Virus record (IMG/VR): IMGVR_UViG_3300027608_000196
Location: 1-20,984 of that record
Direction: 5' to 3' (one strand)
DNA: 20,984 bases
Origin: a virus
The position numbers were made by a program, and so were the translations under genes. This document shows, one piece after another, positions 1-19,600 of the stretch (the stretch's first letter is position 1; each line of letters opens with the position of its first letter). The notes under the pieces were generated by a model. That model did no database searches, had not been told where the DNA came from, and worked only from the letters and a program-made list of their open reading frames with translations.

Positions 1-101
1 GTGGTGGAGGTGGTGGTGGTGGTTGTTGCGCTTTCGGTTTTACTTCGGGTGCAGGAGGAGCAGGAGCCAATGGTGCTATTGTAATTACAACATACTTTTA
101 A
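1..101 (+). CDS. Glycine-rich tail protein, C-terminal end (partial)
   Basis: The window opens inside a reading frame whose codons start at base 3 and which stops at TAA 99-101. The visible 32 residues begin with a run of seven glycines, then two cysteines, and end in GANGAIVITTYF. A glycine-rich stretch followed by a short Ile/Val-rich beta strand ending in an aromatic residue is a familiar C-terminus of phage tail fibre or adhesin proteins. The protein probably lies on the virion surface. The next gene starts four bases after the stop. Its length and N-terminal domains cannot be seen. Confidence 0.7.
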   Translation, partial: GGGGGGGCCAFGFTSGAGGAGANGAIVITTYF

Positions 102-104
102 TTT

Positions 105-269
105 ATGAACGGATACGCTTTACTCGACGAAGAAGGTGGTTGGCTAGTAAATACCATTGTCTGGAATGGAAATCTTGAAGACTGGCAACCTCCAGTTGGA
201 ACAATTGCAAAACCAATAGAAGAGGTAGATATTTCGCAGCTTCCAGAAAGACCAGAAGATGCCATTTAA
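105..269 (+). CDS. Small tail-fibre-associated protein (54 aa)
   Basis: This 54-residue protein begins MNGYALLDEEGGWLVNTIVWNG and continues with a WQPPVGTIA segment. The pattern 'YALID...V.N.IVWDG...WQPP.G..A' recurs in small phage proteins encoded next to tail fibres, so a tail-associated or fibre-assembly role is likely, although the biochemical role is unknown to me. ATG 105 is the only reasonable start. It lies four bases after the previous stop in an A/T-rich leader with no Shine-Dalgarno sequence. The 3' end overlaps the start of the next gene by 11 bases, which suggests co-translation. Confidence 0.65.
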   Translation: MNGYALLDEEGGWLVNTIVWNGNLEDWQPPVGTIAKPIEEVDISQLPERPEDAI

Positions 270-2502
270 TCTTAATCCATTTACGGGGAAACTTGATTTC
301 TTTAAAAGTTCTACAACTTCTGTAATCAATGAAACTGTAAATGACCTTCCAACAAGCCTCCCAGATGGGACTACCGCATATAGCCCGAATGCAACAGGAT
401 TTGGCAAACAGGGGAATAATAGCCAATCTATAGTTTACCCAAAAGATAACACTTGGTATCGTGCAGATACAAACAATGAAGTTGTTCCAGATGTTAATTC
501 CATTTGGAATGTAGGTTCAAGGTACAATAACTACGATCCAAATGCTGGTGCTTTTAATGAGACTATTATTAATGCAACAACGCTGAATGGAGTTCTTACG
601 CAAAACTCATTCATTGATATGCCAATCGACGGGGAGTTGATTCGTGTTTATGTTAAATACCAAGTAAAAGTTTCTCTTCGTGGACAAGGCAATCTTCCAT
701 GTTTTATTTTCACAAATGGATGGTGGGCAGGAGTAGCTGACTACACTAATTACGCAAATCTTGGTTATGCTGTAATTCAGTACGATTGGCGCGGAACTGC
801 TGGAGGAACAATCCCTGCATATCCCGCAAATCTAATGACAGTTTATCCATCTGCATTGAGCAGATTGAATCAATACGTTAATCCTAATTCTAACTATGCA
901 AGTCAAGTATCTGTTGCGACTATCACTGATGTTCGCGCCCAAGATATGTATTATTGGTCAGCAATTCCTCGCAGAGTATTAGCGTTTGTTAAGACTCTTA
1001 CCGCTGATATTGATGTAACTAAAATCGGATTTTGGGGAAATTCTTGGGGTGGAAATATTGCTTGGGGTATGGCAATCGAGCCAGACATTAAAGCCGTTAT
1101 TTCGACTTTTGGGAATGGTTGGATTCACTACTGGAAGACATTCAATGTTCTGCCATACGCTTTGCCATATGTAGAACCAACATTTGTTGAGGGAAATAAT
1201 TATTATATTTCCACGCTTGAATCACAGGCATATGCTCCATACGCAACAGCACCTGTTCTCTGGCTAACGGCAACAAATGATTTTCATGGGAACTTTGATC
1301 GAGGATTCCATAACTTTGAGGTATGCCCAATAACGGGAAGCTATGCATTTATCCCAAATGCAAATCACATTATTACAGGCATAGAGCAAGACGTTCAATT
1401 ATGGTTTGACCATAAACTCAAAGGCACAATTGCCACTTGGCCTAGCAATCCAAACACGATTCCTAGCCTAGTCACTTCTGGGGCAAATACTGGATACCCA
1501 ATGGTAACAGTTGCTCCGTCCGACACAGCAAATATTTCAGCGATTCAAATCTATTATGCTCTTGAAACTGCTGATTGGCAGAATAGAACATGGCTTACAG
1601 CAACAACTGTAAACAATGGTGATGGCACATGGAGTGCAGAAACTCCTTGCTTTAACATTGATGGATATGTCTTTGCTTACGCACAGATCACATACACCAA
1701 CACGATTGTTGTTTGCTCTAAACAAGCTGCATTTATTCCGTCTTCCCTTGGTAATGCAGTTGCGGCTCCTAATAATTACTGGAGTCCAACAAACGCAACT
1801 GCAACGATCAATTTATGGTTGGATGGAGCGGATAACAATACTTTGACACTAAACGGGCCGCTAGTAACTGAATGGAGAGATAAATCGAGCATAGCAAACC
1901 ATGCTATTCCTAACTCTGGTGAAGAACCAGTCTTTACAACAGTAAATGGAATGAATGCAATTCGTTTTACTGGGCTTAAACGTCTATTCTCAACGAACCA
2001 AGTAACAACGAGAGATTACAGAAATGTGTTCATCGTTGCCCAATACGAGGGTGGAACAGTATTTTACAATGGAGCATATTCATTCATGCCTTTGTTTGGT
2101 GGAGCGATTGATGGGGGCAGCGCAAACGGAAACTGTTTCTTTGGAAATAGCTTAACCCAATCGTTTGCTAATAACACATTTTTAGGTGGGCCATTCTTCT
2201 TGAACGCAACCCAAATATCCGCAGACGGAACGAATCGGGTTGTCCTTCCTCAACTCAATACCTCAATGGGATTCATTTCAGCTAACTCAGCATCAGCAGT
2301 TACTGTTGCAGGATACGGAATCGGAACTCTGCGACAAAACATTAGCCCGTGGGATGGAGTTGTATGCGAAATTGTATCTTATAGCTCAACTCTAACCTTG
2401 ACTGACAGACAAAAAATGGAAGGGTATATCGCATGGAAGTGGAATTTAGTTTCCTTGCTTCCAGCAGGACACCCTTATAAAACAACAAGACCAACTGTAT
2501 GA
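259..2502 (+). CDS. Tail protein with alpha/beta-hydrolase and LamG-like domains (747 aa)
   Basis: Residues 1-15 (MPFNLNPFTGKLDFF) match the NPFTGKLD opening seen on many phage tail proteins and probably anchor it to the virion. Residues about 120-390 look like an alpha/beta-hydrolase of the CocE/S15 (Xaa-Pro peptidase/esterase) type: a GYAVIQYDWRGTAGG strand-turn at 169-183, a nucleophile elbow GNSWGG with Ser262, a likely acid Asp341 (LTATNDFHG) and a likely base His370 (NANHIITG), followed by WFDHKLKG. Residues about 515-747 resemble a LamG-like jellyroll: LWLDGADNNTLTLNG near 519, and near the end DRQKMEGYIAWKW and LPAGHPYK. It is therefore probably a virion-borne esterase or peptidase acting on surface polymers; the substrate cannot be told. 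The stop overlaps the next start (ATGA). Confidence 0.8.
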   Translation: MPFNLNPFTGKLDFFKSSTTSVINETVNDLPTSLPDGTTAYSPNATGFGKQGNNSQSIVYPKDNTWYRADTNNEVVPDVNSIWNVGSRYNNYDPNAGAFNETIINATTLNGVLTQNSFIDMPIDGELIRVYVKYQVKVSLRGQGNLPCFIFTNGWWAGVADYTNYANLGYAVIQYDWRGTAGGTIPAYPANLMTVYPSALSRLNQYVNPNSNYASQVSVATITDVRAQDMYYWSAIPRRVLAFVKTLTADIDVTKIGFWGNSWGGNIAWGMAIEPDIKAVISTFGNGWIHYWKTFNVLPYALPYVEPTFVEGNNYYISTLESQAYAPYATAPVLWLTATNDFHGNFDRGFHNFEVCPITGSYAFIPNANHIITGIEQDVQLWFDHKLKGTIATWPSNPNTIPSLVTSGANTGYPMVTVAPSDTANISAIQIYYALETADWQNRTWLTATTVNNGDGTWSAETPCFNIDGYVFAYAQITYTNTIVVCSKQAAFIPSSLGNAVAAPNNYWSPTNATATINLWLDGADNNTLTLNGPLVTEWRDKSSIANHAIPNSGEEPVFTTVNGMNAIRFTGLKRLFSTNQVTTRDYRNVFIVAQYEGGTVFYNGAYSFMPLFGGAIDGGSANGNCFFGNSLTQSFANNTFLGGPFFLNATQISADGTNRVVLPQLNTSMGFISANSASAVTVAGYGIGTLRQNISPWDGVVCEIVSYSSTLTLTDRQKMEGYIAWKWNLVSLLPAGHPYKTTRPTV

Positions 2503-2675
2503 ACGACAACGCCACCAGCCACGGAGTAATGGGTACGATCATATCGACCACAGGATTTATAGTAAGTATGTTACCAGAAATAGAAGCGTCAATTAGAATC
2601 GGGGGCGGAATCATCAGTATTATTGCTGGTGTCCTAACGTGCATCTACATGACCAAACAAATAATTAAAAAATGA
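2499..2675 (+). CDS. Holin-like two-TM membrane protein (58 aa)
   Basis: The ATG lies inside the stop of the hydrolase gene (ATGA), so translation is probably coupled. The 58 residues have a polar N-terminus (MNDNATSHG), one hydrophobic segment at about 11-25 (GTIISTTGFIVSML), a short acidic turn (PEIEAS), a second hydrophobic segment at about 34-50 (GGGIISIIAGVLTCIYM) and a Lys-rich tail (KQIIKK). This is the topology of small class II holins, which form membrane lesions that release or activate the endolysin. It is the first of four overlapping genes ending in the endolysin. A second holin-like gene lies two genes downstream, so one may act as antiholin or pinholin. The call rests on topology and context. 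Confidence 0.6.
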   Translation: MNDNATSHGVMGTIISTTGFIVSMLPEIEASIRIGGGIISIIAGVLTCIYMTKQIIKK

Positions 2676-2836
2676 AACCAAAAAAAATAGTAATAGTAAT
2701 GATAGTTATATCATTTATCTTTTTGGGCATGGCATTCTTAACGGGATGTGCTGGGGTTCAACCAAACGTATGCCTCGAAACAAAATACGGAAAGTTCTGT
2801 TACGAACTTCCAGAAATTAAAGGACTTAAAAAATGA
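2672..2836 (+). CDS. Small lipoprotein in the lysis cassette (54 aa)
   Basis: The protein begins with a basic end (MKPKK), a hydrophobic stretch at 6-25 and the lipobox LTGC with Cys26, a clear lipoprotein signal for signal peptidase II. The mature part is only 29 residues (Cys26-Lys54) with two more cysteines (Cys34, Cys43) and the pattern VCLETKYGKFCYELPE. Start and stop overlap both neighbours as ATGA. In lysis cassettes of phages of Gram-negative hosts, short lipoproteins can be outer spanins such as Rz1. This one lacks the proline richness of classical Rz1, and I see no inner-spanin partner. It may instead be an outer-membrane or superinfection-related lipoprotein. Confidence 0.6.
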   Translation: MKPKKIVIVMIVISFIFLGMAFLTGCAGVQPNVCLETKYGKFCYELPEIKGLKK

Positions 2837-3006
2837 AAAACCTACTAACTACACTACTCGAAAAACTGAGTGAGAACTCCACATGGCGCGGACTGATCCT
2901 AATTGCTATTGCAGTTGGGGTTAAAATTGAGCCAGAACTCCAAGAGTCTATCATCGTCGCAGGACTAGGACTTGTTGGATTAATTAATGTAGTTCGTAAA
3001 GGCTAA
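2833..3006 (+). CDS. Holin-like protein (57 aa)
   Basis: The 57-residue product has a polar helix (MKNLLTTLLEKLSENSTWRG), a hydrophobic segment at about 21-32 (LILIAIAVGVKI), a PELQES turn and a second hydrophobic segment at about 40-54 (IIVAGLGLVGLINVV), ending RKG. The pattern 'STWRGL...G......E.I...GL.LVGLI.V.RK' is one I know from small phage holin-like proteins encoded next to endolysins. It overlaps the lipoprotein gene (ATGA) and the endolysin gene (TAATG), so it is the immediate coupled partner of the endolysin and the stronger holin candidate of the two. Confidence 0.65.
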   Translation: MKNLLTTLLEKLSENSTWRGLILIAIAVGVKIEPELQESIIVAGLGLVGLINVVRKG

Positions 3007-3548
3007 TGGTTCCAAACTCCCGACCGCAGCAAGCAAAGGAGAAGACGCTCTCGATGGTAATTAAATCGGGAATCGTTGATCGTGTTGCTTTGGTTGGTAT
3101 TAGAGGCTATTATCGTGATACTATGGGAGAGAAAGGGAAGAACGATAGGGGTATCTACGATGATGCGATTATACTTTTATCTCCTTCTGTTCATGCTACT
3201 TTCAATGCGAATACTGATCCGTCAGTTCATAAGAAGGGTATCGCGGTTCTCAAAACGGGCATTCATAGGTTCCGTAAGGGGAATCATGGCATTAGTAAAC
3301 CCGGAGGCGGCTACCCTGCGCTTCGACCTTCTAACCCAAAAGAAGAACTGCCAGTCACGCGGGATGGGATTGGGGATGATATGGGAATCGCTATTAACAT
3401 ACATCGGGGAGGATACAACACCACATCGTCGTTGGGTTGCCAAACGATCTACCCGCCGCAATGGGACGGATTCATCAATTTAGTCTACTCAGAAATGACT
3501 AGATACAACCAAAAGACAATTCCCTATCTATTAGTGGAAACGACTTGA
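3006..3548 (+). CDS. Endolysin with L,D-transpeptidase-like motif (180 aa)
   Basis: The protein contains GIRGYYRDTMG (31-41), NDRGIYDDAI (46-55), a TFNANTDPS segment (65-73) and INIHRG-x6-SLGCQTIYP with His133 and Cys145. The His...SxGC arrangement resembles the catalytic motif of YkuD-type L,D-transpeptidases, and this set of motifs is shared by a group of phage endolysin-like proteins. It probably cuts or remodels peptidoglycan after holin action. There is no signal peptide, so it needs the holin for export. ATG 3006 overlaps the holin stop (TAATG). An internal start at Met17 (base 3054) would give a slightly shorter product starting nearer the conserved part. The exact bond cleaved cannot be told. 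Confidence 0.72.
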   Translation: MVPNSRPQQAKEKTLSMVIKSGIVDRVALVGIRGYYRDTMGEKGKNDRGIYDDAIILLSPSVHATFNANTDPSVHKKGIAVLKTGIHRFRKGNHGISKPGGGYPALRPSNPKEELPVTRDGIGDDMGIAINIHRGGYNTTSSLGCQTIYPPQWDGFINLVYSEMTRYNQKTIPYLLVETT

Positions 3549-3579
3549 CTGAAGCTAAATTATCGTTAACGATAAAATT
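3543..3579 (+). promoter_or_regulatory. ACTTGACT-N10-palindrome element before the collagen-like fibre gene
   Basis: The short gap before the fibre gene holds ACTTGACT (3543-3550; TTGACT resembles a -35 box), 10 bases, then the perfect 16-base palindrome TTATCGTTAACGATAA (3560-3575), then AATT and the ATG. An equivalent arrangement with the same 10-base spacing to TATCG lies at 5444-5483. If TTGACT is a -35 box, the palindrome would cover the spacer and -10 region and act as an operator. No good -10 hexamer is visible at 16-18 bases, so the promoter part is uncertain. Confidence 0.55.
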
Positions 3580-5439
<1,860 letters not shown>

Positions 5440-5443
5440 AAAC

Positions 5444-5483
5444 ACTTGACTTAACCCAAACTATCGTTAACGATAAATATATT
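5444..5483 (+). promoter_or_regulatory. ACTTGACT-N10-palindrome element before the short fibre gene
   Basis: The 44-base gap holds ACTTGACT (5444-5451), 10 bases, then TATCGTTAACGATA (5462-5475), a 15/16 match to the 16-base palindrome at 3560, then a run of A/T ending in ATTATG. ACTTGACT, its spacing and the palindrome match the element before the previous gene, while the sequence between them differs. This argues that both parts are functional. A promoter with an overlapping operator is the simplest reading. Confidence 0.55.
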
Positions 5484-6026: not shown

Positions 6027-8585
6027 ATGGCACTAACTAAAGCAACACAAAACGTCCTAGAAGGGATCGTATCGACTGGATCAACTGGAGTATCCGCAGG
6101 ATCATTCGTTGTAGCACAGCAATACAAGATCACTGCTCTTGGAACAACCACACAAACGCAATGGAACACAATTGCTGGAACCACGGGACAAACTTATGTC
6201 GTAGGGTCTTTGTTCACGGCAACAACCACTGGATCAGGTTCTGGAACTGGGGCAGCAGCAGTAGCAAGGACATTGGCTAATAGGTTTGCTGATGTGGTGA
6301 ACGTATTAGATTTCGGTGCTGATCCTACTGGAGTAGTTGATTCTGCAACATTTATTCAAAATGCAATAAATTACGCAAATTCATCTACGACTAAAAAATT
6401 CGTATACATCCCTTCTGGTAAATATAAAATTTCAAGCCAACTTCAAACTTATAGTAATGTTACGATAAGCGGTGATATTAATGGGTCTACAATTTTTGAT
6501 TACTCAACTCAAACAACTGGTGATTTCATATACACAGTTCCAACAGTTGGATCACCAATAGCAATATCTTCTAATATTGGAAGATATGATACGAGCGTTT
6601 CAACAGCATCACCGCATGGCGCATCTGTCGGAGACAAGTATGCGTTGTTGTCGCAAAGAAATGCTTTGACTCCTGATGGTGGTGATTGGCAATTGGGTAT
6701 TGGAACTGGGTCACTAAAAGCATCGTATTATAGTGAAATTCTTAATGTTCAAACAGTAAATGATTCTGATACATTTGAATTTTATCCACCGCTTATATTT
6801 CCAGATTACAATACAAGTAACTCAGCGGAAACTCCAAATACAACAAAAGTATGTAATATACCAACTGTTGCATCTGGGAATTATGCTTTTACAATTACGC
6901 TTGCATCTGGAGATACTACTGGATTGGTAGAACAAATGACTGTGACTGGAACTGGAATTCCATCAAGTTATGTTGTTAGGATTTCTGCAATTATAAATTC
7001 TACACAAATCAGGATGTATTCTTCATCTGATGCTGGATTTACTCTTACGAGCGGAACAACACTTACTTTTACAATCAACAGTAGAGCGAATGCAGATATT
7101 AGAAAGATAAATTTTGTTGATGATGTAAGGATTCAAGACATTAATTTTATTTCTGGAACAGGATCAAACAAAATAAATCTGTATGGAGTAAATAATGGAT
7201 TGGTTAAAAATTGTCACTTTTCATTAAATGCTATTGGAGAAGCAGTAAATTATTTAAATTGTTACAATACTAAATCTGTTGGATGTTCTGTTTTTTACAC
7301 GGCAGGAATTGCAAATTCATTTACTTACAATCCACTTTCAAATATCTCAAGTTGGAATTGTGGATATGAAGATTGCAAAATTGAAAATGGTTATCAAGGA
7401 TTTGATGTAACATATTCTGACGGATTTTTTGGATCAAGTGTATTTTCACCATGTCTTTTTGCATATGTAGATAGGTGTATTGTTATAAATTGTGCAAATG
7501 GAATGACATCACACTCAGGATCATATGGTGTAAAAGTTACAAATAATCAATTTTTATATTGCGGCACCGGAGTGTTTTTAAGATCGCCAAATTCAATTTG
7601 CACGAATAATGTAATTACTGGTGACAGTTCAACTCAAGGATCTGGTATTTTATTATTTAATTATTGTTATAATACATTAGTATCTAATAATTTAATTGAA
7701 GCATTCCAAGAAGGAATTTACATATCTCCTTCAGTTGCTCTACTCGGATTTGCTATTAAAAATGTAAGAGCAAATGTATCGAATAATGTTATAAAAAGAA
7801 CACTTATGGGGATTCGCATTGAGGGTTCAGATTATTACCATAAAACCGCAGATTTGATGAATGTTATCATTAATAACAATACGATTACAGATTCAGATAA
7901 ACATATTGTTTGTGAAGAGTATTCAAATGGAATATCAATTGTTGGAAATAATTTAGTAGGCCCAACTACAGGTGGAACTGGGCCATCTATAAGTATTGCA
8001 AATGATTGCTTTTCAGTAAATGTAAGAGACAATATGTTTTCAGATATTGGAACTGGAAATCCAATAAGCGTTGGAACATTAACAGATACTACAGTATATC
8101 CACCATCTAATTACAAATATAAAACCAACATGGTTTTTTGGAGTGGAAACAAATTCTTTGGAGACACAGTTGGAGCGCAACAAATATTTGCAACATCGTA
8201 TGATCCTAATGTAGATAACAAATATGTTGATTCTGGAACATATACACCATCGCTTGCTCTATCAACAAATGTTACTACAGTTGTATTTTCTTTGTGCAAT
8301 TTTTCTATAAAAGATAGGATTGCAACTCTTTCTGGAAGAGTTACAATTACTCCAACAGCAAACGGAGTCGCAACTGTTAGATTTGCTCCACCAATTCCAT
8401 CAAATTTAAACGCACTTCTTACAAATGCGTCTTCTTCTGGAACAGCGGCTTCAACAAGTAATAGCACTCAAACAATTGGAACAATATCATATGATGGAAC
8501 AAATAATGTAATTTCTCTTGGGTTTATTGCAACAAATACATTGGCAAATGAATTTAGATATATTTTTCAATATCCAATTTGGTAA
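6027..8585 (+). CDS. Beta-helix tailspike, pectate-lyase-like (852 aa)
   Basis: Residues 1-80 hold a tail N-terminal module (FVVAQQYKITALGTTTQTQW...VGSLFTATTTGSGSGTG). Residues 88-115 (FADVVNVLDFGADPTGVVDSA...IQNAI) are the typical entry of pectate-lyase-3/glycosyl-hydrolase-28-like right-handed beta-helix domains on phage spikes. The next 500 or so residues carry many short Asn-rich turns (VSNNLI, VSNNVI, INNNTITD), as expected of beta-helix rungs. The last ~110 residues (YTPSLALSTNVTTVVF...DRIATLSGRVTITP) form a separate beta-rich cap. It probably binds and cleaves capsular or exopolysaccharide; substrate and chemistry (lyase or hydrolase) are unknown. The gene is clearly more A/T-rich than the hub gene downstream. 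Start context is AATATTATG. Confidence 0.82.
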   Translation: MALTKATQNVLEGIVSTGSTGVSAGSFVVAQQYKITALGTTTQTQWNTIAGTTGQTYVVGSLFTATTTGSGSGTGAAAVARTLANRFADVVNVLDFGADPTGVVDSATFIQNAINYANSSTTKKFVYIPSGKYKISSQLQTYSNVTISGDINGSTIFDYSTQTTGDFIYTVPTVGSPIAISSNIGRYDTSVSTASPHGASVGDKYALLSQRNALTPDGGDWQLGIGTGSLKASYYSEILNVQTVNDSDTFEFYPPLIFPDYNTSNSAETPNTTKVCNIPTVASGNYAFTITLASGDTTGLVEQMTVTGTGIPSSYVVRISAIINSTQIRMYSSSDAGFTLTSGTTLTFTINSRANADIRKINFVDDVRIQDINFISGTGSNKINLYGVNNGLVKNCHFSLNAIGEAVNYLNCYNTKSVGCSVFYTAGIANSFTYNPLSNISSWNCGYEDCKIENGYQGFDVTYSDGFFGSSVFSPCLFAYVDRCIVINCANGMTSHSGSYGVKVTNNQFLYCGTGVFLRSPNSICTNNVITGDSSTQGSGILLFNYCYNTLVSNNLIEAFQEGIYISPSVALLGFAIKNVRANVSNNVIKRTLMGIRIEGSDYYHKTADLMNVIINNNTITDSDKHIVCEEYSNGISIVGNNLVGPTTGGTGPSISIANDCFSVNVRDNMFSDIGTGNPISVGTLTDTTVYPPSNYKYKTNMVFWSGNKFFGDTVGAQQIFATSYDPNVDNKYVDSGTYTPSLALSTNVTTVVFSLCNFSIKDRIATLSGRVTITPTANGVATVRFAPPIPSNLNALLTNASSSGTAASTSNSTQTIGTISYDGTNNVISLGFIATNTLANEFRYIFQYPIW

Positions 8586-8850: not shown

Positions 8851-9597
8851 ATGGATGAAGTGAAATTATTAGAGTTTATGAAAATAAACTATGCGACAAG
8901 AAAAGATATGTCGCAGTCCGTTAAATTATTTCAAGAAATCGGTTATAATGTAATAAAGTATTTTGATATTGATGGAGCGCAAGGTTATCTAACTAAGAAA
9001 GATGATGATATTGTGCTGTCTTTTAGAGGCACACAAGTATCATTTACTGGCATAAATAAAACGGAAAAGTCAGATATTTTAGCTGATTTAAATGTCAGTA
9101 AAGAAAAAGAAAGCGGTGGCAAGGTTCATACTGGATTTCAAAAAGAAGCAAATAAATTATGGGAAGCGGTAGCTGTTGAAATCGCTCAACATATTTCTGG
9201 AAACAAATTGTTTATAACTGGTCATAGTTTGGGAGCGGGAATCGCTACAATTGTTGCATCTAGGCTGCAAGATAAAGTCGATACTCTTATTACATTCGGT
9301 TCGCCCAGAGTAGGGGATGGTGATTTTGTAAAGCATTTAAAAGTCAAACACCTTAGAGTTCAAAACACAAATGACTATGCTTGTTTTCTACCGCCACTAT
9401 GGATGGGGTTTAGGCATCATGGCACAAATCTGTACATTGACCGTATTGGTAATGTGCAAGAAATCGGTTTAATTAAAAAATCGAAAGATATGGTACTATC
9501 ATTAGTCAAAGATTTCAAGAATGGTAATTATATTTCTGCATTTGTTGATCATAAGCCGATTAACTATATTAATAAACTAACCTTTTTAAATAATTGA
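8851..9597 (+). CDS. Class 3 (alpha/beta-hydrolase) lipase (248 aa)
   Basis: The protein shows the class 3 lipase pattern: VLSFRGTQ (55-62), VHTGFQKEA (92-100), the nucleophile elbow ITGHSLGAG with Ser126, TFGSPRVGD (148-156), NTNDYACFLPP with the likely acid Asp175, and FVDHKPINYI with the likely base His234. A full catalytic triad is therefore present. It would hydrolyse acyl esters of lipids. It has no signal peptide or obvious tail-anchoring domain, so it may act inside the cell, at lysis, or be packaged in the virion. It sits between the tailspike and a fibre gene on the same strand. The 55-base leader shows no Shine-Dalgarno sequence and no clear promoter. Confidence 0.85.
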   Translation: MDEVKLLEFMKINYATRKDMSQSVKLFQEIGYNVIKYFDIDGAQGYLTKKDDDIVLSFRGTQVSFTGINKTEKSDILADLNVSKEKESGGKVHTGFQKEANKLWEAVAVEIAQHISGNKLFITGHSLGAGIATIVASRLQDKVDTLITFGSPRVGDGDFVKHLKVKHLRVQNTNDYACFLPPLWMGFRHHGTNLYIDRIGNVQEIGLIKKSKDMVLSLVKDFKNGNYISAFVDHKPINYINKLTFLNN

Positions 9598-9603
9598 TTG
9601 CAG

Positions 9604-9658
9604 ACTTGACAATCCCTTCGACAATAGTAATAACAATAGCAATAATCTTACAAATACT
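9604..9658 (+). promoter_or_regulatory. Possible promoter before the Cys-rich fibre gene
   Basis: The 61-base gap contains ACTTGACA at 9604-9611. TTGACA is a perfect -35 hexamer, and ACTTGAC is shared with the gaps at 3543 and 5444. A/T-rich sequence follows (TAGTAATAACAATAGCAATAAT), with only weak -10 candidates at 16-18 bases. There is no palindrome here. The gene start context is AATACTATG. The call rests on the -35-like box and on being the longest gap in the window. Confidence 0.35.
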
Positions 9659-10570
9659 ATGAGCCTCTGCACACCTTGCACTCCCTGCCCACCATGCGAT
9701 TCCGAATATCCATTGTTGTGCGAACCACTTGAGACGACAGCTAATGGTAAACGATTGGTAGTAGAAGACTCTGCTGCCTGTCAGAAAACCATTCAGACAC
9801 CAGCTTCCCAGCAAGTCTTGAAGACTGATGGGGCAAGCAATCTGACTTGGACTAACGGAGCTAACAATACTGTCCTAGCTAAATCATCTACTGGGATTGT
9901 TGAGTTTGCTACAATTAATAGCGTTCTTCAAGTTGGCCCAATTGATCTTGGTATCCAGCCATTGACTACTACTGGGGCAGTAAGCACAGGAGCAATTACC
10001 GCGACAGGAGCAATTACCGCAGCAAGTGCTGCTATTATAGGAGCAATTACCGCAACAAGTGTTACATTGGCTGCTGATCCAACAACAAATCTTCAAGCGG
10101 CAACTAAGCAATATGTTGATACTGCTAATGCGCTAAAGTTAAATAAAGCTGGCGATACAATGACTGGTGCATTGATTGTGAATAGCACAATTGCATCAAA
10201 CAGCACGATCCTTGCTAATGGCAATTCTTCTAAAATTGGATACAATACTGGTGCAGGAGGAACGATCACCCAAGGAGCAGGCGCAAAGACAAACTCTGTT
10301 ACTCTGAATCGTCCTACTGGAACTATCGTTACCGATAATGCGGCACTCGCAGCAGACACCTCCGTTACATTCAATGTGAGCAACACAGTTATTTCTGCTA
10401 CAGACATTGTAGTTGTAAGTCATATTGCTGGAGGAACGCTTGGTTCATACAACTTCGCGGTGGAGCCAGCGGCAAGCAATGCTAATATCGTAATCCGCAA
10501 TATCACAGCAGCGAGTCTATCAGAAGCATTGACATTGCGATTCATTGTAATCAAAAGCGTTAACTCCTAA
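9659..10570 (+). CDS. Tail fibre protein with Cys-rich N-terminus (303 aa)
   Basis: The N-terminus has cysteines at 4, 7, 10, 13, 21 and 41 (CTPCTPCPPC...). Then comes a repetitive, beta-prone segment (about 100-140; TGAVSTGAITATGAITAAS) and the phage-fibre motif AATKQYVDTANALKLNKAGDTMTGAL (145-170). The C-terminal ~110 residues (TLNRPTGTIVTDNAALAADTSVTFNVSN...TDIVVVSHIAGG...LSEALTLRFIVIKSVNS) match a recurring phage fibre end domain. The protein is probably a trimeric fibre or an adaptor for other fibres. The stop overlaps the next start (TAATG). One TATCG-N4-CGATA dyad lies inside the gene at 10324-10337. Confidence 0.78.
   Translation: MSLCTPCTPCPPCDSEYPLLCEPLETTANGKRLVVEDSAACQKTIQTPASQQVLKTDGASNLTWTNGANNTVLAKSSTGIVEFATINSVLQVGPIDLGIQPLTTTGAVSTGAITATGAITAASAAIIGAITATSVTLAADPTTNLQAATKQYVDTANALKLNKAGDTMTGALIVNSTIASNSTILANGNSSKIGYNTGAGGTITQGAGAKTNSVTLNRPTGTIVTDNAALAADTSVTFNVSNTVISATDIVVVSHIAGGTLGSYNFAVEPAASNANIVIRNITAASLSEALTLRFIVIKSVNS
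10324..10337. repeat. Dyad TATCG-TTAC-CGATA inside the Cys-rich fibre gene
   Basis: An exact TATCG-N4-CGATA dyad with spacer TTAC, in codons for the residues TIVTDN. It matches the palindrome at 3560 at 14 of 16 positions. The 14-base string ATCGTTACCGATAA at its core recurs at 17816-17829 in a different codon phase, which argues for a DNA- or RNA-level signal rather than a shared peptide. Confidence 0.5.
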
Positions 10571-12417
10571 TGCCAGCAGATGGATCAGTCTTTGATGGTT
10601 TCACAAGTATCGTAGCGCAAGACGCAGATACTCATCCATCGTATTTGCCTCCATCAATGGTGGCAGAGTCTGTTAATAGAACATTCCGAGGCGGGATTAA
10701 CAGAACAAGGCCGAGCATCCGCAACATCTCAATCGTAGTAGGGGAAGGCCAAGATGAGATTATCGTTAACGATATTCAGAATGGTAGTTTCCAAGGTTCA
10801 TATCCATATCGGGCAACGAACTTAAATACCAACGATGGGATTCTTCTATCGGTATCTGGGGTGATCTACTTCCTAAAGATAGTAAACAACATAGCCTACG
10901 CTTATAAGTTAATCGGAGGCAATGACCCCGGCATGATGCACACATGGTTCGTGCAAGCCGAAGATCGGGTGTACATCCAGAACGGATACCAGAATGCGAT
11001 TGCGTGGGATGGAGACTTGAGTGTACCAGCCTATAGACTGAACCCATACCTCAAGAAGATGCCGATTGGGACTATCATGGAATACGCTTTCGGGCGAGTA
11101 TTCGTAACGGATAGGCTTAACCAAATCTACGCTTCAGATATTATCTACGGAAACGGATTCACCGATACCAAGAATACCGAGAACTTCACAGAGATCGGAT
11201 ACTGGGCAGAAGGTGGAGCTTTCTCCACTCCATCTATGATGGGAAATATCACAGGCATGAAAGTAATGCCACAGATTGGAACTAACCTCCGCGCCCAAGG
11301 TGCATTGGTCATCCTAACTGCTAACGGAGCATTCGCAATGGATGTCAGTATCCCAAGAGCGCAATGGGCTACAACCAATATGCAAACGATCAGCTTGCTT
11401 GGTCGTGGATGCGTATCACCATACACAGCTTTAGCTAACTCTGAGCTTTGGTTCAGATCACATGATGGTTGGGCATTCTATTCCAATAGCCAATCAGAAT
11501 TTGCCAGATACTTCTCGCTTCGTAAACTATCTAGAGAAGTGAACAAGTGGGTATCAAATGATACTCCTTGGTTAAAGCAGTTCGCTTCTACGATGTTCTT
11601 CGATAACTATCTGATCAGTACAGTAGCACCAGAAACCTATCGGGCGGCAGGGGTAGAAGGATTGAATAGGTATCATAGGGGAATGGTAGTGCTTGACCTA
11701 GATCAATCCTCTTCACCCTCACCTGACGCACAGCTTTCTTTTCGCTGGAATGGCATCTGGACGGGCTTTAGACCAACTCAACTGCTATCTGCATTGATCA
11801 CTGGTCAGAAGCGTGGATTCGGGTTCTCATTCGATAACGATAATAAGAATCGTTTGTATGAGTTCACTAACTCTACTGGAAGTGATTTCGGTGCTAATGG
11901 AACTAGAGCAATCGAATCATTCTTCACATCGGGAAGGTATGACTTCGCGCAAAGCGGGGCATCGAATAAGTTCTTGAGGAAAAGAATCACTGGTGGAGAA
12001 ATGTGGCTATCTGAAATCAAAGGAGAAGTCACAAGTAAAGCTGAGTTCAGACCAGACTCCTATCCATGTTGGAGTGAGCTTAAAGTTCCTACGACCTATG
12101 GGTGTGACCCATGTTCACCCGTTCTAAAAACACCATGCAATCCACGCAGGGGCGGAGACTCCTACAAGAGATACAAGTTTAACTCACCCGATCCGTCTGA
12201 ATGTAATTACATTTCTGATATACCAGTTATTGAAGGAAGTGAATTTCAATTAAAGATTAACTTGACAGGAGCGGCAACAGTGGACAGAGTAAGAATAATG
12301 GCAAACATTAAGAATTTGGAAGACTCTCCGATTGGTGACTGCCCAGAAAACGATCAAGAGTGTCCAGACATTAACTGCTGCCCAGAAAGATATTACGACT
12401 ACTCAATCAATGGATAA
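10570..12417 (+). CDS. Probable tail nozzle/hub protein (615 aa)
   Basis: This is a 615-residue beta-rich protein. Repeated short Trp/Tyr/Gly segments (YAFGRVFVTDRLNQIYASDI, LWFRSHDGWAFYS, FRWNGIWTGFRP) suggest a beta-propeller-like tail component comparable in place and size to podovirus nozzle/stabilisation proteins (T7 gp12 or P22 gp10 type); I infer this rather than recognise a clear match. The C-terminal part is Cys-rich: CW near 499, CDPCSPVLKTPC near 514-525, and CPENDQECPDINCC at about 591-604. It is coupled to the upstream fibre (TAATG), and its end overlaps the next gene by eight bases. A 15/16 copy of the palindrome lies inside at 10760-10775. Confidence 0.6.
   Translation: MPADGSVFDGFTSIVAQDADTHPSYLPPSMVAESVNRTFRGGINRTRPSIRNISIVVGEGQDEIIVNDIQNGSFQGSYPYRATNLNTNDGILLSVSGVIYFLKIVNNIAYAYKLIGGNDPGMMHTWFVQAEDRVYIQNGYQNAIAWDGDLSVPAYRLNPYLKKMPIGTIMEYAFGRVFVTDRLNQIYASDIIYGNGFTDTKNTENFTEIGYWAEGGAFSTPSMMGNITGMKVMPQIGTNLRAQGALVILTANGAFAMDVSIPRAQWATTNMQTISLLGRGCVSPYTALANSELWFRSHDGWAFYSNSQSEFARYFSLRKLSREVNKWVSNDTPWLKQFASTMFFDNYLISTVAPETYRAAGVEGLNRYHRGMVVLDLDQSSSPSPDAQLSFRWNGIWTGFRPTQLLSALITGQKRGFGFSFDNDNKNRLYEFTNSTGSDFGANGTRAIESFFTSGRYDFAQSGASNKFLRKRITGGEMWLSEIKGEVTSKAEFRPDSYPCWSELKVPTTYGCDPCSPVLKTPCNPRRGGDSYKRYKFNSPDPSECNYISDIPVIEGSEFQLKINLTGAATVDRVRIMANIKNLEDSPIGDCPENDQECPDINCCPERYYDYSING
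10760..10775. repeat. Near-perfect palindrome copy inside the hub gene
   Basis: TTATCGTTAACGATAT matches the 16-base palindrome at 15 of 16 positions and keeps the exact TATCG-TTAA-CGATA core. It lies about 190 bases into the hub gene, in codons for IIVNDI. It could be an internal operator or a roadblock-type site. Confidence 0.55.
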
Positions 12418-12937
12418 TCAAGATTCCAGTCCAGCCTTAACATTCCCGAATGTTCCAATTGATTTCTGCCCTACAGGAAACTGGTCAGAAATCTTGCAAG
12501 AATTTATTGACGTTGTTCTAGTCAACGGAACGATCAACGTACCCGGCTTAGGTGACGTAACACCAGAACAGATTGCTCAGATCAACGAGACTTTAGCTGA
12601 TCAACAGAATCAGATTGATGCGCTAGAAGCAGAAGGAGTTGCGCTTGACGCTCGCATTGATGTGCTTGAGTCTAATCCAGTAGTAAAAGTAAGATCAGGA
12701 AATGTTGCTGTAGCATCTGGAGATACAACAACTCTTGGAATATCATTCTCGTCCGTGTTGCCAACAAATGTGTATGGCGTTTCTCTTACTCCAGTCTATG
12801 CTTCTGGAACACCGCTAACAACCCCCTTGTTTTCATTGGTAACTGGAAGTAAAACTACTGCTGGATTTACAGTTAGAGTTGATAATAATATTGCAGAAAT
12901 AACGAGTTTGGACTGGATGGCGGTTCACACTTCGTAA
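12410..12937 (+). CDS. Small coiled-coil fibre with lectin-like C-terminus (175 aa)
   Basis: I chose ATG 12410 (MDNQDSSPALTFPN) because it overlaps the hub gene by only eight bases; a longer reading from 12332 would overlap by 86. Residues about 54-85 (PEQIAQINETLADQQNQIDALEAEG...) form a coiled coil with heptad-like spacing. The C-terminal ~85 residues (VRSGNVAVASGDTTTLGISFS...GSKTTAGFTVRVDN...DWMAVHT) resemble the H-type lectin/receptor-binding knob found at the tip of some phage fibres, with its closing W-x-A. It probably forms a trimeric receptor-binding or capping fibre on the hub. The knob assignment rests on pattern only. Confidence 0.68.
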   Translation: MDNQDSSPALTFPNVPIDFCPTGNWSEILQEFIDVVLVNGTINVPGLGDVTPEQIAQINETLADQQNQIDALEAEGVALDARIDVLESNPVVKVRSGNVAVASGDTTTLGISFSSVLPTNVYGVSLTPVYASGTPLTTPLFSLVTGSKTTAGFTVRVDNNIAEITSLDWMAVHTS

Positions 12938-12965
12938 GTAAATAGCCATAAAGAAAACAAATACT

Positions 12966-13124
12966 ATGACACCACTAAAAGGAACTGACCCTCGCCTCGT
13001 CTCTGGCGGCTCACCAACTCGCGGTAAGATCGGCGAAGGTATGGGCAATATGCCAAACCTTGGAGCCAAAAAGCCTAGCATCTACACGACTGCTGGCACT
13101 CCAAAACAAGGCTACCAGAAGTAA
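12966..13124 (+). CDS. Small basic hypothetical protein (52 aa)
   Basis: This 52-residue reading frame (MTPLKGTDPRLVSGGSPTRG...GNMPNLGAKKPSIYTT...GYQK) is rich in Gly, Pro, Lys and Arg with few hydrophobic residues. It starts in the same CAAATACTATG context as the fibre gene at 9659, which supports it as real. The stop is next to the palindrome before the adaptor gene. I do not recognise the family. A disordered, DNA- or protein-binding structural accessory is possible but not shown. Confidence 0.55.
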   Translation: MTPLKGTDPRLVSGGSPTRGKIGEGMGNMPNLGAKKPSIYTTAGTPKQGYQK

Positions 13125-13140
13125 TTATCGTTAACGATAA
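13125..13140. promoter_or_regulatory. Perfect 16-base palindrome overlapping the adaptor start codon
   Basis: TTATCGTTAACGATAA fills the gap between the 52-residue gene and the adaptor gene, and its last base is the A of the adaptor ATG. Its sequence is identical to 3560-3575. Unlike the copies at 3560 and 5461, no ACTTGACT precedes it. As DNA it is a symmetric site for a dimeric protein; as RNA it could form a six-pair stem with a UUAA loop that would hide the start codon. Confidence 0.6.
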
Positions 13141-14102
13141 TGGGTGATACCCTCAAAGAGATGGCAGAACTCGTAAAGGGTTTTGTCGGAGATAGTGGCG
13201 TATGTTCTGATGAGAGAGCTTTTAAAGCAATCAATCAGGCCAGACGCTTGCTATGGAATAAACGTGCGTGGACAACTCAAGAAGAGTACGTCCAGATTTG
13301 TTGCGTTAACGACTGCTTCACTCTACCCAATCGCTATGAGCAAATCAAGCTGGCGTGGGTAGGGGATAACGCAGTATCGTTAGCTGACGAATGGTTCAAT
13401 TCGACTAACGCATTTGCGCTGAATGCTGACCAATCCTGCCATCGTTTGATTACGGAAGTAGGAGGGAAGCACGTTCTCTTTAGGGACTACACCACCCACT
13501 TCTATCGTTTAGGTGTGATGTTAGAAAACGCAGAAGACATCGGCGTGACTCTGACATTTGAAGTACAAGACCAATACGACACCTACCATACGATCAAGGT
13601 AACTGGGGTTAACCCACCAGACCTAGCTCAATCTGATCTATTGATCAAAGGAGTTAGATCAGTATCTAAACCCGCAACCAAAGGAAGAGTAAGAATCTAT
13701 GCGTACGATACCTCGCTGGAAGCTAAAACATTAATCTCTGTCTACCAACCTAATGATGTTAACCCATCATTCCGTAGGTTCAAAGCACCAAGAACGTGCG
13801 AGTGCATCACTCTGTATGCTTCTAAGAGATACTTTGATCTGGTAGATGAACAAGAGCTAGTTGAGTTCATCCCAGATGCAATGATCTACGCTATCCTTGC
13901 TCTGAACTCCAGAGACAACAGGAAAGCGCAAGAGTTCTTGATGAACCTAGACCTTGCTATCAAAGAGCAAGAGAAGGAAATGGAAGGTGAAGAGATACCA
14001 ACCGCCGCTCCTATCCGCTTTGCTAACTATAGCAGAGCAGAGAACCTAATCGGTTCTGATTTACTTTCTCCATCAGCTAACGACTACTTCTTGTATAGAT
14101 GA
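13140..14102 (+). CDS. Head-tail adaptor-like protein (320 aa)
   Basis: The N-terminal ~45 residues are helical with the pattern 'VCSDERAFKAINQARRLLWNKRAWTT', like the helical start of podovirus adaptor/tail-tube A proteins and related connectors. A Cys-containing beta segment follows (YVQICCVNDCFTLPNRYEQIKLAWVG), then a mainly beta middle. A helical C-terminal part contains AILALNSRDNRKAQEFLMNLDLAIKEQEKEME (about 255-286). It probably joins the portal to the nozzle, in keeping with the hub upstream and internal proteins downstream. The start codon overlaps the palindrome at 13125-13140. The stop overlaps the next gene (ATGA). The family call is moderate. Confidence 0.6.
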   Translation: MGDTLKEMAELVKGFVGDSGVCSDERAFKAINQARRLLWNKRAWTTQEEYVQICCVNDCFTLPNRYEQIKLAWVGDNAVSLADEWFNSTNAFALNADQSCHRLITEVGGKHVLFRDYTTHFYRLGVMLENAEDIGVTLTFEVQDQYDTYHTIKVTGVNPPDLAQSDLLIKGVRSVSKPATKGRVRIYAYDTSLEAKTLISVYQPNDVNPSFRRFKAPRTCECITLYASKRYFDLVDEQELVEFIPDAMIYAILALNSRDNRKAQEFLMNLDLAIKEQEKEMEGEEIPTAAPIRFANYSRAENLIGSDLLSPSANDYFLYR

Positions 14103-14449
14103 CGGCATACGACCTAGCTAATAAGTGGCAATTACAATATGGAGAAGAACCTTTACAAGAAAGAATCGACTGGCACAAAGATTTCGGGCTTGTATTTATA
14201 ACAAAGAAACTATTTATTCTAGCAAGCGAATTAAATTACGATCCAGAAACAAAAGATATAGATATGCAAACATCGAATACTAACGCATGGTTTATTGAAC
14301 TAGCTGCTAACGCAACTAGCGAATCTTTGTTTGAACATATTAAAAGGATTTTCCCAAATAAACAAGATTGGGTTTTGTGGTTGCGTAGGGGAAGCAGTAA
14401 ATTACACGCATATAAATGGGATGAGTTTGCTAGAAAGGCAGGGGTTTAA
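14099..14449 (+). CDS. Hypothetical protein between adaptor and internal-protein genes (116 aa)
   Basis: A 116-residue soluble protein (MTAYDLANKWQLQYGEEPLQERIDWHKDFGLVF...DWVLWLRRGSSKLHAYKWDEFARKAGV), Trp-rich and likely alpha/beta. I do not recognise it. It overlaps the adaptor gene as ATGA and is followed after two bases by the next gene, so it is translated with the virion proteins. The position corresponds roughly to T7 gene 13 (internal virion protein A), but no sequence evidence supports homology. No signal, membrane segment or clear active-site motif is visible. Confidence 0.6.
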   Translation: MTAYDLANKWQLQYGEEPLQERIDWHKDFGLVFITKKLFILASELNYDPETKDIDMQTSNTNAWFIELAANATSESLFEHIKRIFPNKQDWVLWLRRGSSKLHAYKWDEFARKAGV

Positions 14450-15287: not shown

Positions 15288-16658
15288 ATGGCCGAAGATA
15301 ATATATTAGCAAGTAACCTAGCACAACTGGGAGGTCAAATCTCTTCAACATTCCAAACTGTTGCATTACAAAACCAATACAAGAATGCACTACCCGGAAT
15401 GCAAGAAGCCTTCAAATCTGCCATGACAGACTTCGACTCTGGTAAAAGTGGCGCAGGATTCAGCAAGATCATGGCAATAGCTATGGAGAATCCTAACAAT
15501 CCCTACATCCAGAACATTACCCAGATGGCATTCAAGGCTGGTCAGTTTGCTTCTGATGATTACTTTAAGGGTCAGCAGATTGATGTATCTAGGGCTAGAT
15601 ATGGTGGTGGAGGTGGTTCTCAAGTCACCGCAGATGATATTATAACTGGACTAAATGACCAAGATGGAATAACACCAGATGTAACTGAAGAAGGAATTGT
15701 TGATCAAGGAGTAGCTGAAGCATCAAGGGCTGGAGCAATGGGGCTTCCAATTGGTGAAGCAATCAGGGCAAGGCAGCAAAGAATGCAGCAGCCAACATTA
15801 GTTCCACAACAACAGTCAATGCAAGCTCAAGAAGATAACCTAGCTGTACAAGGTGATCTATCGACCCCAGTTGAAGTGCAACTGCCAGTACAAGAATCAG
15901 CACCAACACCTCTCGCATTTAAACAAGAGAAACCACAAGAGCAACCAAGCCCACTTGAGATAACTTTCCAAAAGAAATTTGATGATTGGTCATCTATGCC
16001 ACTAGAGAAGCAAAAGGCACAAGATGAAGCTACATCTATATCGTTTGGTTCTGAATCAGATTTAAGTAGTCATGTCAGCAAACTTCCAAGAGGACAAAAG
16101 TTTGTTGCTGCTGACCCATCTTTACAATCCGTTATCCCCGGAGTAACTGGATTTATTCTTCCAGAAAAGTTTTCTCAATGGGTTAGAAGAGGAGTGACTG
16201 TAGGCAAATCAATCAGTCAAACAATTGGTAAAGAAGACAAGTTGGCAGATGAATCTAAGAAATCGGCTGAATGGTTCGATGCTTTTAGTGATGCAGCAGT
16301 GAGTGTAGACGCTAACCCAAGGTTGCGTAATCTACTAAAAGACGCTGGTGGTGTAGCCAATATTGAATACCAACCTGTTAAACGACCTCCAACAGATGAG
16401 GAAAGAAGGGCTAATTACAATGCTGGAATGCAAGAAGTAATTCAAGCATCTATTCGTGGATCAAAACTTCCTCCAATTGAAATCACAAAAGATGAGGCTC
16501 AAGACCTTCAGACATTAAAAACAAAAGCTGCTGCTATGCAAACGATGGGTGCGAAAGCAGTTATTAACAGATCATCTATAAAGAAACCAGAAGCAGTTAC
16601 ACCAGCACCAAAAAGTGCTGGACAAAAGAAAGAACTTAAATCTATATTCCTTAAATGA
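15288..16658 (+). CDS. Probable internal/ejection virion protein (456 aa)
   Basis: This hydrophilic, Gln-rich protein has a helical N-terminal part (1-100; IMAIAMENPNNPYIQNITQM), a glycine patch (YGGGGGSQ near 105), and a low-complexity Gln/Pro linker (about 165-235; QQRMQQPTLVPQQQ). Further helices lead to a Lys-rich tail. It has no membrane segment and no recognised enzyme motif. Its place between a membrane-active internal protein and a giant C-terminal one fits a T7 gp15-like partner. The start context is AACTATTATG, and the stop overlaps the giant gene as ATGA, so the two should be made in fixed proportion. Confidence 0.55.
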   Translation: MAEDNILASNLAQLGGQISSTFQTVALQNQYKNALPGMQEAFKSAMTDFDSGKSGAGFSKIMAIAMENPNNPYIQNITQMAFKAGQFASDDYFKGQQIDVSRARYGGGGGSQVTADDIITGLNDQDGITPDVTEEGIVDQGVAEASRAGAMGLPIGEAIRARQQRMQQPTLVPQQQSMQAQEDNLAVQGDLSTPVEVQLPVQESAPTPLAFKQEKPQEQPSPLEITFQKKFDDWSSMPLEKQKAQDEATSISFGSESDLSSHVSKLPRGQKFVAADPSLQSVIPGVTGFILPEKFSQWVRRGVTVGKSISQTIGKEDKLADESKKSAEWFDAFSDAAVSVDANPRLRNLLKDAGGVANIEYQPVKRPPTDEERRANYNAGMQEVIQASIRGSKLPPIEITKDEAQDLQTLKTKAAAMQTMGAKAVINRSSIKKPEAVTPAPKSAGQKKELKSIFLK

Positions 16659-19600
16659 TCTTCACGGCAGACAAGCTAAAAGAAGCTAGGGATGCTGGAT
16701 ATTCTGATGATGAAATATTTAGTTTTGCAAGTCAATCAGACCCAAAATTTAATGATGCTAAATCAGAAGGCTATTCACTTGATGAGATAGCATCTTACTT
16801 TTCCACTCAACAACCAGTAGGAACTTCAGTAGAGCAAGAAGTATCACAACTTGGAACTGCGCTTAAATCTGGTATCGCTCAACCATTGCAAGCGATGGGC
16901 GTTACTGCTGAGACTCTCGGTATGCCAGCAGTTGGTTCTGCACTCAAGGGTGCGGTTGAACAACCAGAAGGCTATATCCCAGCAGCACAGAGATTCATGG
17001 AGCCGCAAGCTGGCGAAGCTCAAATCGGAGGATTTGCATTACAATATCTACCTCGCGCTATCGTTGAACAGGTCGGACAACTCGCAGGGAGTGTCGCATC
17101 TAGGGCTGCTGGGGGAGTCATCGGCGGTGCTGCTGGCTCAGTAGTTCCCGGCGCGGGAACAGCAGTTGGTGCTGGTATTGGTATGTTTACTGGCCCAGCA
17201 TTGTTTGAAGCTGCACAGATCGTTGGCCCAGTCGCACAAGAACGAGCCAAGAACAATGGCAGGGAAATCCCGAATAGCGAAGACTTGGCCTATGCTTGGA
17301 CTACAGCAGGGACTGGAGGTGCGCTGAATGCTATTGGTGCAAAGTATCTCCCCGGTGGAGAGAAGGCCGCTGGAGCATTAAGCAAGAGGATTGCGGCATC
17401 CTTCCTTGGTGAAGGAGCCACTGAAGGAGCGCAGGCAATAGCCCAGCAAACAGGCGAAACAATCTTCACAGAGAAGGGGCTAGAGATTAAACCAAAGGCC
17501 GCGCTAGGTGAGGCATTGATCGGTGGCGTGTCAGCAGGCGGAGCTACTATTGTGATGAGTCCACTTCAGAAAGAACAAGTGGACATAGATAAACAAGCCG
17601 ATCTTGAATCCCGTGATCTTTCCATCCCTGTAGATGATCCAGAAGTGCGAGCTAATTTGGATAAAGCAAATATCCTTGAGCAAGAGAACAAGGATTCTCT
17701 AGCTATCATCAACAAGTTTGGCGTTGAGTCTGAAGAGGGGAAAGCTGCCCAGCAAACTATTGTTGATAATACCGATGAGATTACCAAGATCAACGAGACT
17801 CTTCCTGCTTCAGCATCGTTACCGATAACTGAAGCAGAGAAGCAACAGATTGAGTTAGCAAAAGCGATTGCTGCTCCCGAAGTTGCCGCACCAGTCACAG
17901 AAGTTGCCGCTCCAGTTACTCCAGCACCTACCGAAGTTATCCCAACTCAGGCAGCAGTCGCAGAAGCTGCAACACCCGCTGAACAAGTTCCTCCAAAGGT
18001 AGAAAATGTTTCATCTATTCCAACGCCAGAAGAATCTAAAAAGTGGGATGACTTATCAGCTTATCAAAAACCAATCATTGAAGCACAAGAAACTGAAGCG
18101 TTAGACCTACTTGCATCTAAAATTGGAGTTAAAAGACAAGGCATTTCAGATGTTAAACTGCAAGAAAAAATAATAACGAACACGCATCCAGACGATATTC
18201 AAGATGCGCTTGTTGAGTTAAAACTTTCACCATCACCAACCCCCGTAGCCCCCACCCCTGCTGTAACAGAAGCACCCGTAGAGGTTGCAATAACAGAAAA
18301 AACACCAGAGCAGCAACGTATAGCGTTAGGAACAAAGCGAGTTGGAGATACCGCTGTAGCTGCAAAACCTTCAAGTTCCAACACAACACTTCAAGACTTC
18401 ACTGTTGGCATGACTCCAATGGCATCAAAGCGAGCCATAGATGCCTTGAATAATTCAGTGACTGCTGAAGGAATGCCCTTCAGAAGAAGAGAGCTTGTTG
18501 AAAAAGATATTTCAGAGGGAGCAGAAGTTGTATTATCAAAGTCAGGTAAGCGCAGATTACAGCGACCAAATGGAAGCTATAGGGACGAGTCGCAAATCAG
18601 CAAAACAGCAATGGATTATGCGGAGTTTCTGATTGCAAATAAGTCCACCCCCGCAGTATCGGAAACGATAGCGAAGCCAACTACGCCAAAACTTCAAAGA
18701 GAAAAGGCAGATACAGACTTTGCGAGTATTGATGAAATCACAGATATTATCCAAGAATCATCTGCGAAAGGAACGGATAAATCTGAATCTAAAAGAATCG
18801 CTATAAATTTTGTTAAAGATTCTATAAATGAAAGCATTGATTGGGTCAGAGATACTTTTGGAAGTGCGCCAGAAAAAGTTGGATTTGATGCAAGTCAAAT
18901 GAAGAAATGGTTACAGAATGCCGTCTCCATAAGGCCAGTTACAGAAGATGAATTTACTCGCGGAATAATAAAGAAAAAGGGTCAACTAACTAAGGAAGGA
19001 AGAGATCGAGGGAAAATAGATGTTAGTGTAATATCCCCAATGGAATCGAGGATGATTGCTTTGCATGAAGCATCTCACTTCTTGTATCATTTGGATGAAG
19101 ATAAACAAATTCCAGAAAAAGTATTAAATTCAATTAAGAATAAAAGACTTATGCCGGATAAGTTTCCTAATCCGGGCAAGGGAATCAAAGAAAGATTTGC
19201 TGATGCTTTTACAAACTGGGCATTTACGAAAATGCACCCAGAATATGCAAATGAATTTCCAACAGTCCCTCAAGAGTTTGTTTCTTGGATAGAATCAGAA
19301 GCAATAAGCGAACCGCTTGATTACATTTCAAGTGTAAATAAAATTAGAAAGCAAAAGCAAGCCAAACCAAAACTTGGCGAGAAAGGTGGCGTTCTAATCC
19401 CATCAAGAGAAGACTTCATCCAAGCAGGACAGAACATCTACGAAAAAGGAATGGAGTTTGGCGCTTGGGCCAAGCAGATGATCCAGCAATTCGGTGATGT
19501 AGTCAGAGAGTTCCTTGGTGATGTATGGCAAGCGGTGAGTGGTGCGCCAGCTAAACTGAATGAACTGATGGGTTACTTGCCGGGTAAAGGTGAGGCTGGT

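Follow-up and report, generated by a model that had tools for sequence, protein, structure and literature searches.

The locus and the two ends of the protein

The window analysed here, the whole 20,984-nt stretch of IMG/VR record IMGVR_UViG_3300027608_000196 (positions 1 to 20,984), carries a gene for a fibre-type protein with a central alpha/beta-hydrolase domain, located in a tail/fibre gene cluster (Table 1). Upstream lies the cut end of a glycine-rich fibre gene, whose ...TTYF ending is of the same type as that of the NPFTGKLDF fibre that comes before the hydrolase in a related contig, L013. Farther downstream, the window holds fibres, a pectate-lyase-type tailspike and tail proteins. The earlier note on this DNA had called an open reading frame here with the candidate triad Ser262, Asp341 and His370; the frame is intact and the residues are exactly where claimed.

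Table 1. The hydrolase gene, the parts of its product and the adjoining genes, in window positions
Feature	Position	Strand	Basis or remark
Upstream glycine-rich fibre gene, 3' end (last ~32 residues), cut by window edge	1..101	+	...TTYF ending as in L013
54-aa ORF between fibre and hydrolase, overlapping the hydrolase start	105..269	+	Similar short ORF in L013
Fibre-type protein with alpha/beta-hydrolase domain, 747 aa	259..2502	+	Intact ORF, position check, dN/dS
N-terminal region, residues 1-82: NPFTGKLD motif, then fibre-like stretch DGTTAY...GFGKQG...WYRADT	259..504	+	Motif common to fibres
Alpha/beta-hydrolase domain, residues 83-395	505..1443	+	Pfam, profile against PDB, AlphaFold model, fold searches
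Ser262, predicted nucleophile, in GNSWG	1042..1044	+	Position check, alignment
Asp341, predicted triad acid, in NDFHG	1279..1281	+	Position check, alignment
His370, predicted triad base	1366..1368	+	Position check, alignment
Small beta-rich domain 3' of hydrolase, residues 396-498, in both clades	1444..1752	+	Alignment, strands in model
C-terminal beta-rich phage-structural domain, residues 499-747; LamG-like label tentative	1753..2499	+	phrog_10356 match
Holin-like small membrane protein	2499..2675	+	ATGA overlap with hydrolase stop
Small lipoprotein-like (2672-2836) and membrane (2833-3006) ORFs, probable lysis cluster	2672..3006	+	
Conserved ORF, possible endolysin	3006..3548	+	phrog_3000, function not annotated

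Among 2.9 million viral contigs scanned, 18 loci proved to be related to the hydrolase protein, and these fall into two architectures: a full-length form with the C-terminal domain (L002-L007, 76-87% identical to the window protein) and a short form of ~490 residues that ends after the small beta domain (L010-L016, 63-66%). L013 carries two family members on one contig, both in the fibre cluster, one belonging to clade 1 (about 8896-10365) and the other a diverged paralogue (clade 2, 12903-14369). Through this paralogue a second clade was found, ~32% identical to the window protein and present on some 20 further contigs. The Ser/Asp/His triad and the glycines of the nucleophile elbow are invariant across both clades (16 of 16 aligned sequences), and dN/dS lies at ~0.04-0.2 in every domain of the gene (Nei-Gojobori, window against relatives). 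A reading frame kept in relatives, low dN/dS and an invariant triad together point to more than chance; such purifying selection on an unchanging triad indicates a constrained, presumably functional protein.

The proposal of a virion-type N-terminus was supported. NPFTGKLD also opens the collagen-like fibre gene directly upstream of the hydrolase in relatives, and in one case the N-termini of hydrolase and adjacent fibre are 44% identical over 52 residues (E 1.8e-5). NPFTGKLD-type starts recur in the Synechococcus phages S-RIP1 (in an annotated tail fiber protein), S-SRP02 and KBS-S-2A. At the other end of the protein, residues 500-747 match phrog_10356, 'virion structural protein' (5.9e-22), and also phrog_11772; among 50,697 phage records, this domain was matched in cyanophages, Rheinheimera phage Barba, Erythrobacter phages and a Pseudomonas phage, with 24-33% identity to the cyanophage and Barba homologues. 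The domain is optional, being absent from the short forms; receptor-binding tips often are. Its earlier LamG-like label is plausible but weak: Pfam finds nothing in the C-terminal domain of the window protein and a profile search of that domain against the PDB returned no LamG, while the S-CBS4 homologue gives a weak Laminin_G_3 match (E 0.014). In Erythrobacter phage ZS04, a tail-region virion structural protein (XYM60563.1, L133:2929-5193) likewise contains a relative of this C-terminal domain together with a serine hydrolase and Laminin_G_3, but its hydrolase belongs to the S11 DD-carboxypeptidase family and the domain order differs. We regard the window protein as likely to be a fibre or virion component, and features of its sequence suggest that it would be present in the virion.

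Fold and family of the hydrolase domain

The call of an alpha/beta-hydrolase holds at the level of both sequence and predicted structure. Pfam Abhydrolase_1 matches residues 159-346 (E 6.7e-6) at 26.4 bits against a curated cut-off of 25.8, and the DLH, BAAT_C and S9 models score above their cut-offs in clade-2 homologues. Ser262 lies in G-N-S-W-G, the sole GxSxG of the 747-residue protein. The structure prediction and fold search that the earlier note had proposed were run on residues 83-498 and returned an alpha/beta-hydrolase. This AlphaFold domain model, built on a 16-row alignment of divergent sequences, has a mean pLDDT of 65 and a pTM of 0.68; the sheet and the nucleophile elbow are well modelled, and the loops bearing Asp341 and His370 are of low confidence (pLDDT 30-50). 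A full-length model of the protein (pLDDT 31) was of no use, and it gave no confident fold for the C-terminal domain. With the domain model, Foldseek returned 330 PDB chains at E<=0.001, the best being acetyl xylan esterases (1e-9), then CE15. VIA placed first 6agq, a CE7 acetyl xylan esterase (Z 21.2, rmsd 3.3, 263 residues), together with at least 11 further CE7-type entries at Z 20.4 or more among the 50 matches listed. That the central domain adopts the alpha/beta-hydrolase fold is virtually certain; with the fold thus settled, both rankings make carbohydrate esterases its nearest kin by shape.

The closest of these is CE7, the family of acetyl xylan esterases and cephalosporin C deacetylases, which resembles the domain in structure (Z ~21, ~260 of ~316 residues), in its GxSxG and in the Ser-Asp-His order, the triad being 183/273/302 in AXE-HAS10 (PMC9606172) and 262/341/370 in the window protein. 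Against this stand an identity of ~14% and the setting, a phage fibre-type protein with extra domains. The CE7 motifs are RGQ, GxSxG (GxSQG) and HE (PMC9606172); in our alignment, RGQ is altered to RGT or AGx and HE to HI, HV, HN or HD, and the elbow, GNSWG or GHSYG, agrees with GxSxG but departs from the CE7 form GxSQG. In each of the four records searched, AXE1 (PF05448) stayed unmatched up to E 10, with controls matched. Formal CE7 membership was accordingly rejected, RGQ and HE being missing and AXE1 silent.

The CocE/S15 identity that the earlier note had assigned was rejected as well. Likeness to Peptidase_S15 (PF02129) consists of the shared fold and a short match round the nucleophile elbow, which reaches 14.7 bits in the window protein and 21.8/19.8 bits in clade 2, below the cut-off of 23 in both clades. 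PepX_C (PF08530), the S15-specific C-terminal domain, had no match at E<=10 in the window and three related records, again with controls matched, and no S15/CocE structure occurs among the 50 VIA matches listed, in which the nearest solved folds are the carbohydrate esterases. An SGNH hydrolase was ruled out by the alpha/beta-hydrolase model and the GxSxG elbow, and the Pfam scan of the window gave no SGNH/GDSL match. Since RGQ and HE are not kept, AXE1 is silent and PepX_C is absent, neither CE7 nor S15 is the proper home of this domain, which the model would instead place as a CE7-like alpha/beta-hydrolase outside the named families compared.

Proposed role of the enzyme

Tail-borne O-deacetylation by SGNH-type fibres is an established mechanism, represented by G7C gp63.1, Pectobacterium phage Possum gp66 and Klebsiella prophage RBPs (PMC9569702, PMC13123978). 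The window protein is built like these enzymes: an anchor is joined to a serine esterase domain and, at the C-terminus, to a domain of receptor type, all in horizontally spread modules. It differs in being a classical alpha/beta-hydrolase, with GxSxG and with Asp and His far downstream, and the removal of O-acetyl from surface polysaccharide that has been shown for the SGNH proteins is proposed for it. We interpret the protein as a tail-fibre or fibre-associated esterase, most likely a surface polysaccharide O-deacetylase, and put the probability of this reading at about 0.5; that the domain is an esterase of some kind is a good deal more probable. We infer the esterase activity, the acetyl leaving group and the glycan substrate alike. 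If so, the fold serving tail-borne deacetylation here would be a different one from SGNH.

We picture the NPFTGKLD region as anchoring the enzyme at a site of the kind used by the adjacent collagen-like fibre; the C-terminal beta domain, where present, probably holds the surface glycan. Once the phage touches a cell, His370 and Asp341 would activate Ser262, which would attack an ester on a cell-surface glycan and release an acyl group, most likely O-acetyl, from capsule or O-polysaccharide. The phage could then hold on or reach its receptor.

A virion-borne esterase could also act on a different ester, be it glucuronoyl, feruloyl-type, methyl or a cell-surface lipid ester. CE15 is among the best Foldseek matches, and next below CE7 in VIA, among the 50 matches listed, come a thermophilic lipase (Z 20), feruloyl esterases (Z 19), and the methylesterase BT1017 and CE15 (Z ~18). 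We consider such a substrate unlikely, as CE7 comes first in VIA and Foldseek and its alignment spans the entire domain, beginning at model residue 1, whereas the lipase match starts only at model residue 31.

A LysB-like lysis enzyme, that is, a late esterase acting on an outer-envelope lipid or polymer and not part of the virion, is a real rival to the fibre-borne deacetylase, because the hydrolase stop overlaps the holin-like start and lipoprotein, membrane and endolysin-like genes adjoin, likewise in many relatives. The holin-like gene overlaps or abuts the hydrolase in the window and in most podovirus-like relatives, many of which share the same gene order. Mycobacteriophage LysB is such a phage alpha/beta-hydrolase esterase near lysis genes, likened to the window protein on its general description; to our knowledge, it has neither a fibre N-terminus nor a lectin-type domain. 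The fibre-type N-terminus of the window protein, its phage-structural C-terminal domain and the fibre genes on both sides argue against this role, as does the gene following the hydrolase in L112 and in L115, which is of a non-lysis type. In L112 the genes immediately after the clade-2 hydrolase (528-2015) encode a T4-like prohead protease and a gp23-type capsid protein, so that the hydrolase keeps company with structural genes and not with lysis genes alone. On balance, we hold a lysis function to be rather improbable.

Acyl removal and the cleavage of surface peptides had both been suggested earlier, and the first is now favoured over the second, given that CE7 folds rank above S9 and that S15 is sub-threshold. 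A virion-borne S9/S15-type peptidase cleaving surface peptides or proteins would accord with the two-clade profile, whose best single match in the PDB is PH0594, an S9 acylaminoacyl peptidase (4.6e-5; xylan esterase 1, 5.2e-4), and with the S9 Pfam matches of clade 2. It would also accord with 99 Acidobacteria genomes, which contain partial matches only, round the catalytic core, many of them in proteins as long as S9 peptidases. Yet the missing PepX_C, the S15 score and the rank of the S9 folds under CE7 (Z near 18 among the 50 VIA matches listed) make a peptidase distinctly improbable. A binding module that kept the hydrolase fold and lost catalysis is the least credible reading of all, with triad and nucleophile elbow invariant in two such distant clades under strong purifying selection.

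Distribution and exchange among phages

The podovirus-like phages that carry the fibre-type hydrolase, for which we favour deacetylation, divide into lineages (G002, G003 and G010 versus the window, G005 and G011) between which portals are 21-22% and tail proteins ~24% identical, compared with 68-84% within lineages. Across these lineages, identity between the hydrolases reaches 95% for G010 with G011, and 86% for G003 with G005, where the portals share 22%; the adjacent fibre gene travels with the hydrolase. Clade 2 extends to L112 and L113, where it stands beside the prohead protease, scaffold and gp23-type capsid genes of a T4-like myovirus. Such uncoupling of a module from the head genes is characteristic of functions in host recognition. 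Alteromonas phage tail fibres are reported to behave in the same way (PMC10579305).

Neither the hydrolase part, searched up to E 10, nor the terminase, portal and major capsid proteins encoded by the podovirus-like relatives could be matched to any of 50,697 phage records. A scan of bacterial and archaeal genomes, which relies on short exact peptide patterns that distant relatives may escape, gave no relative, nor did 299 genomes of a phylum other than Acidobacteria at 1e-6. The pattern IGFxGNSWGG retrieved 8 loci, all unrelated or barely related, and the pattern match in L073 was discarded as a chance hit.

An alpha/beta-hydrolase on a fibre is unusual, as the earlier note had said of such a fold on a tail, though rare rather than unheard of: four alpha/beta-hydrolase-fold depolymerases are counted among the false negatives of DepoScope (PMC11326577), so that the kind is already known. 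Programs that predict phage depolymerases learn from beta-helix, propeller and triple-helix folds, and other folds escape them (PMC11326577). We tentatively propose, at slightly less than even odds, a new family of fibre-mounted alpha/beta-hydrolases, traded as a host-range module by unrelated podovirus-like phages and T4-like myoviruses, which would unmask the cell surface beside beta-helix depolymerases and SGNH deacetylases and is unmatched in cultured phages. Such a family, with its members all in uncultured phages, would extend the surface-modifying enzymes by one class and would suggest that the hosts bear esterified surface glycans acting as receptors or shields; its sharing among phages with unrelated heads suggests competition for the same hosts.

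Other genes of the window encode further enzymes and virion parts. The ORF at 6027-8585 specifies a tailspike-type protein with a Pect-lyase_RHGA_epim domain (5.3e-17), which suggests that this phage has a beta-helix depolymerase in addition to the hydrolase fibre. A second, different alpha/beta-hydrolase of the same phage is the class-3 lipase-type product of an ORF in the fibre/tail region (8851-9597; Pfam Lipase_3 1.8e-20, phrog esterase/lipase), which occurs in 0 of 19 related contigs. The very large ORF at 16655-20983 runs past the window end with at least 1443 residues; its counterpart in G005 has 2388, and it is perhaps an internal virion or ejection protein.

The window also contains a perfect palindrome, TATCGTTAACGATA, in four exact copies (3561-3574, 5462-5475, 10761-10774 and 13126-13139), where ~0.01 would be expected even allowing one mismatch. 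Its core is found in two copies each in the related G005 and G011, and in none of the examined stretches of G002, G003 and G010. Three of the window copies lie just upstream of the ORFs at 3580, 5484 and 13140, and the palindrome is possibly a regulatory site.
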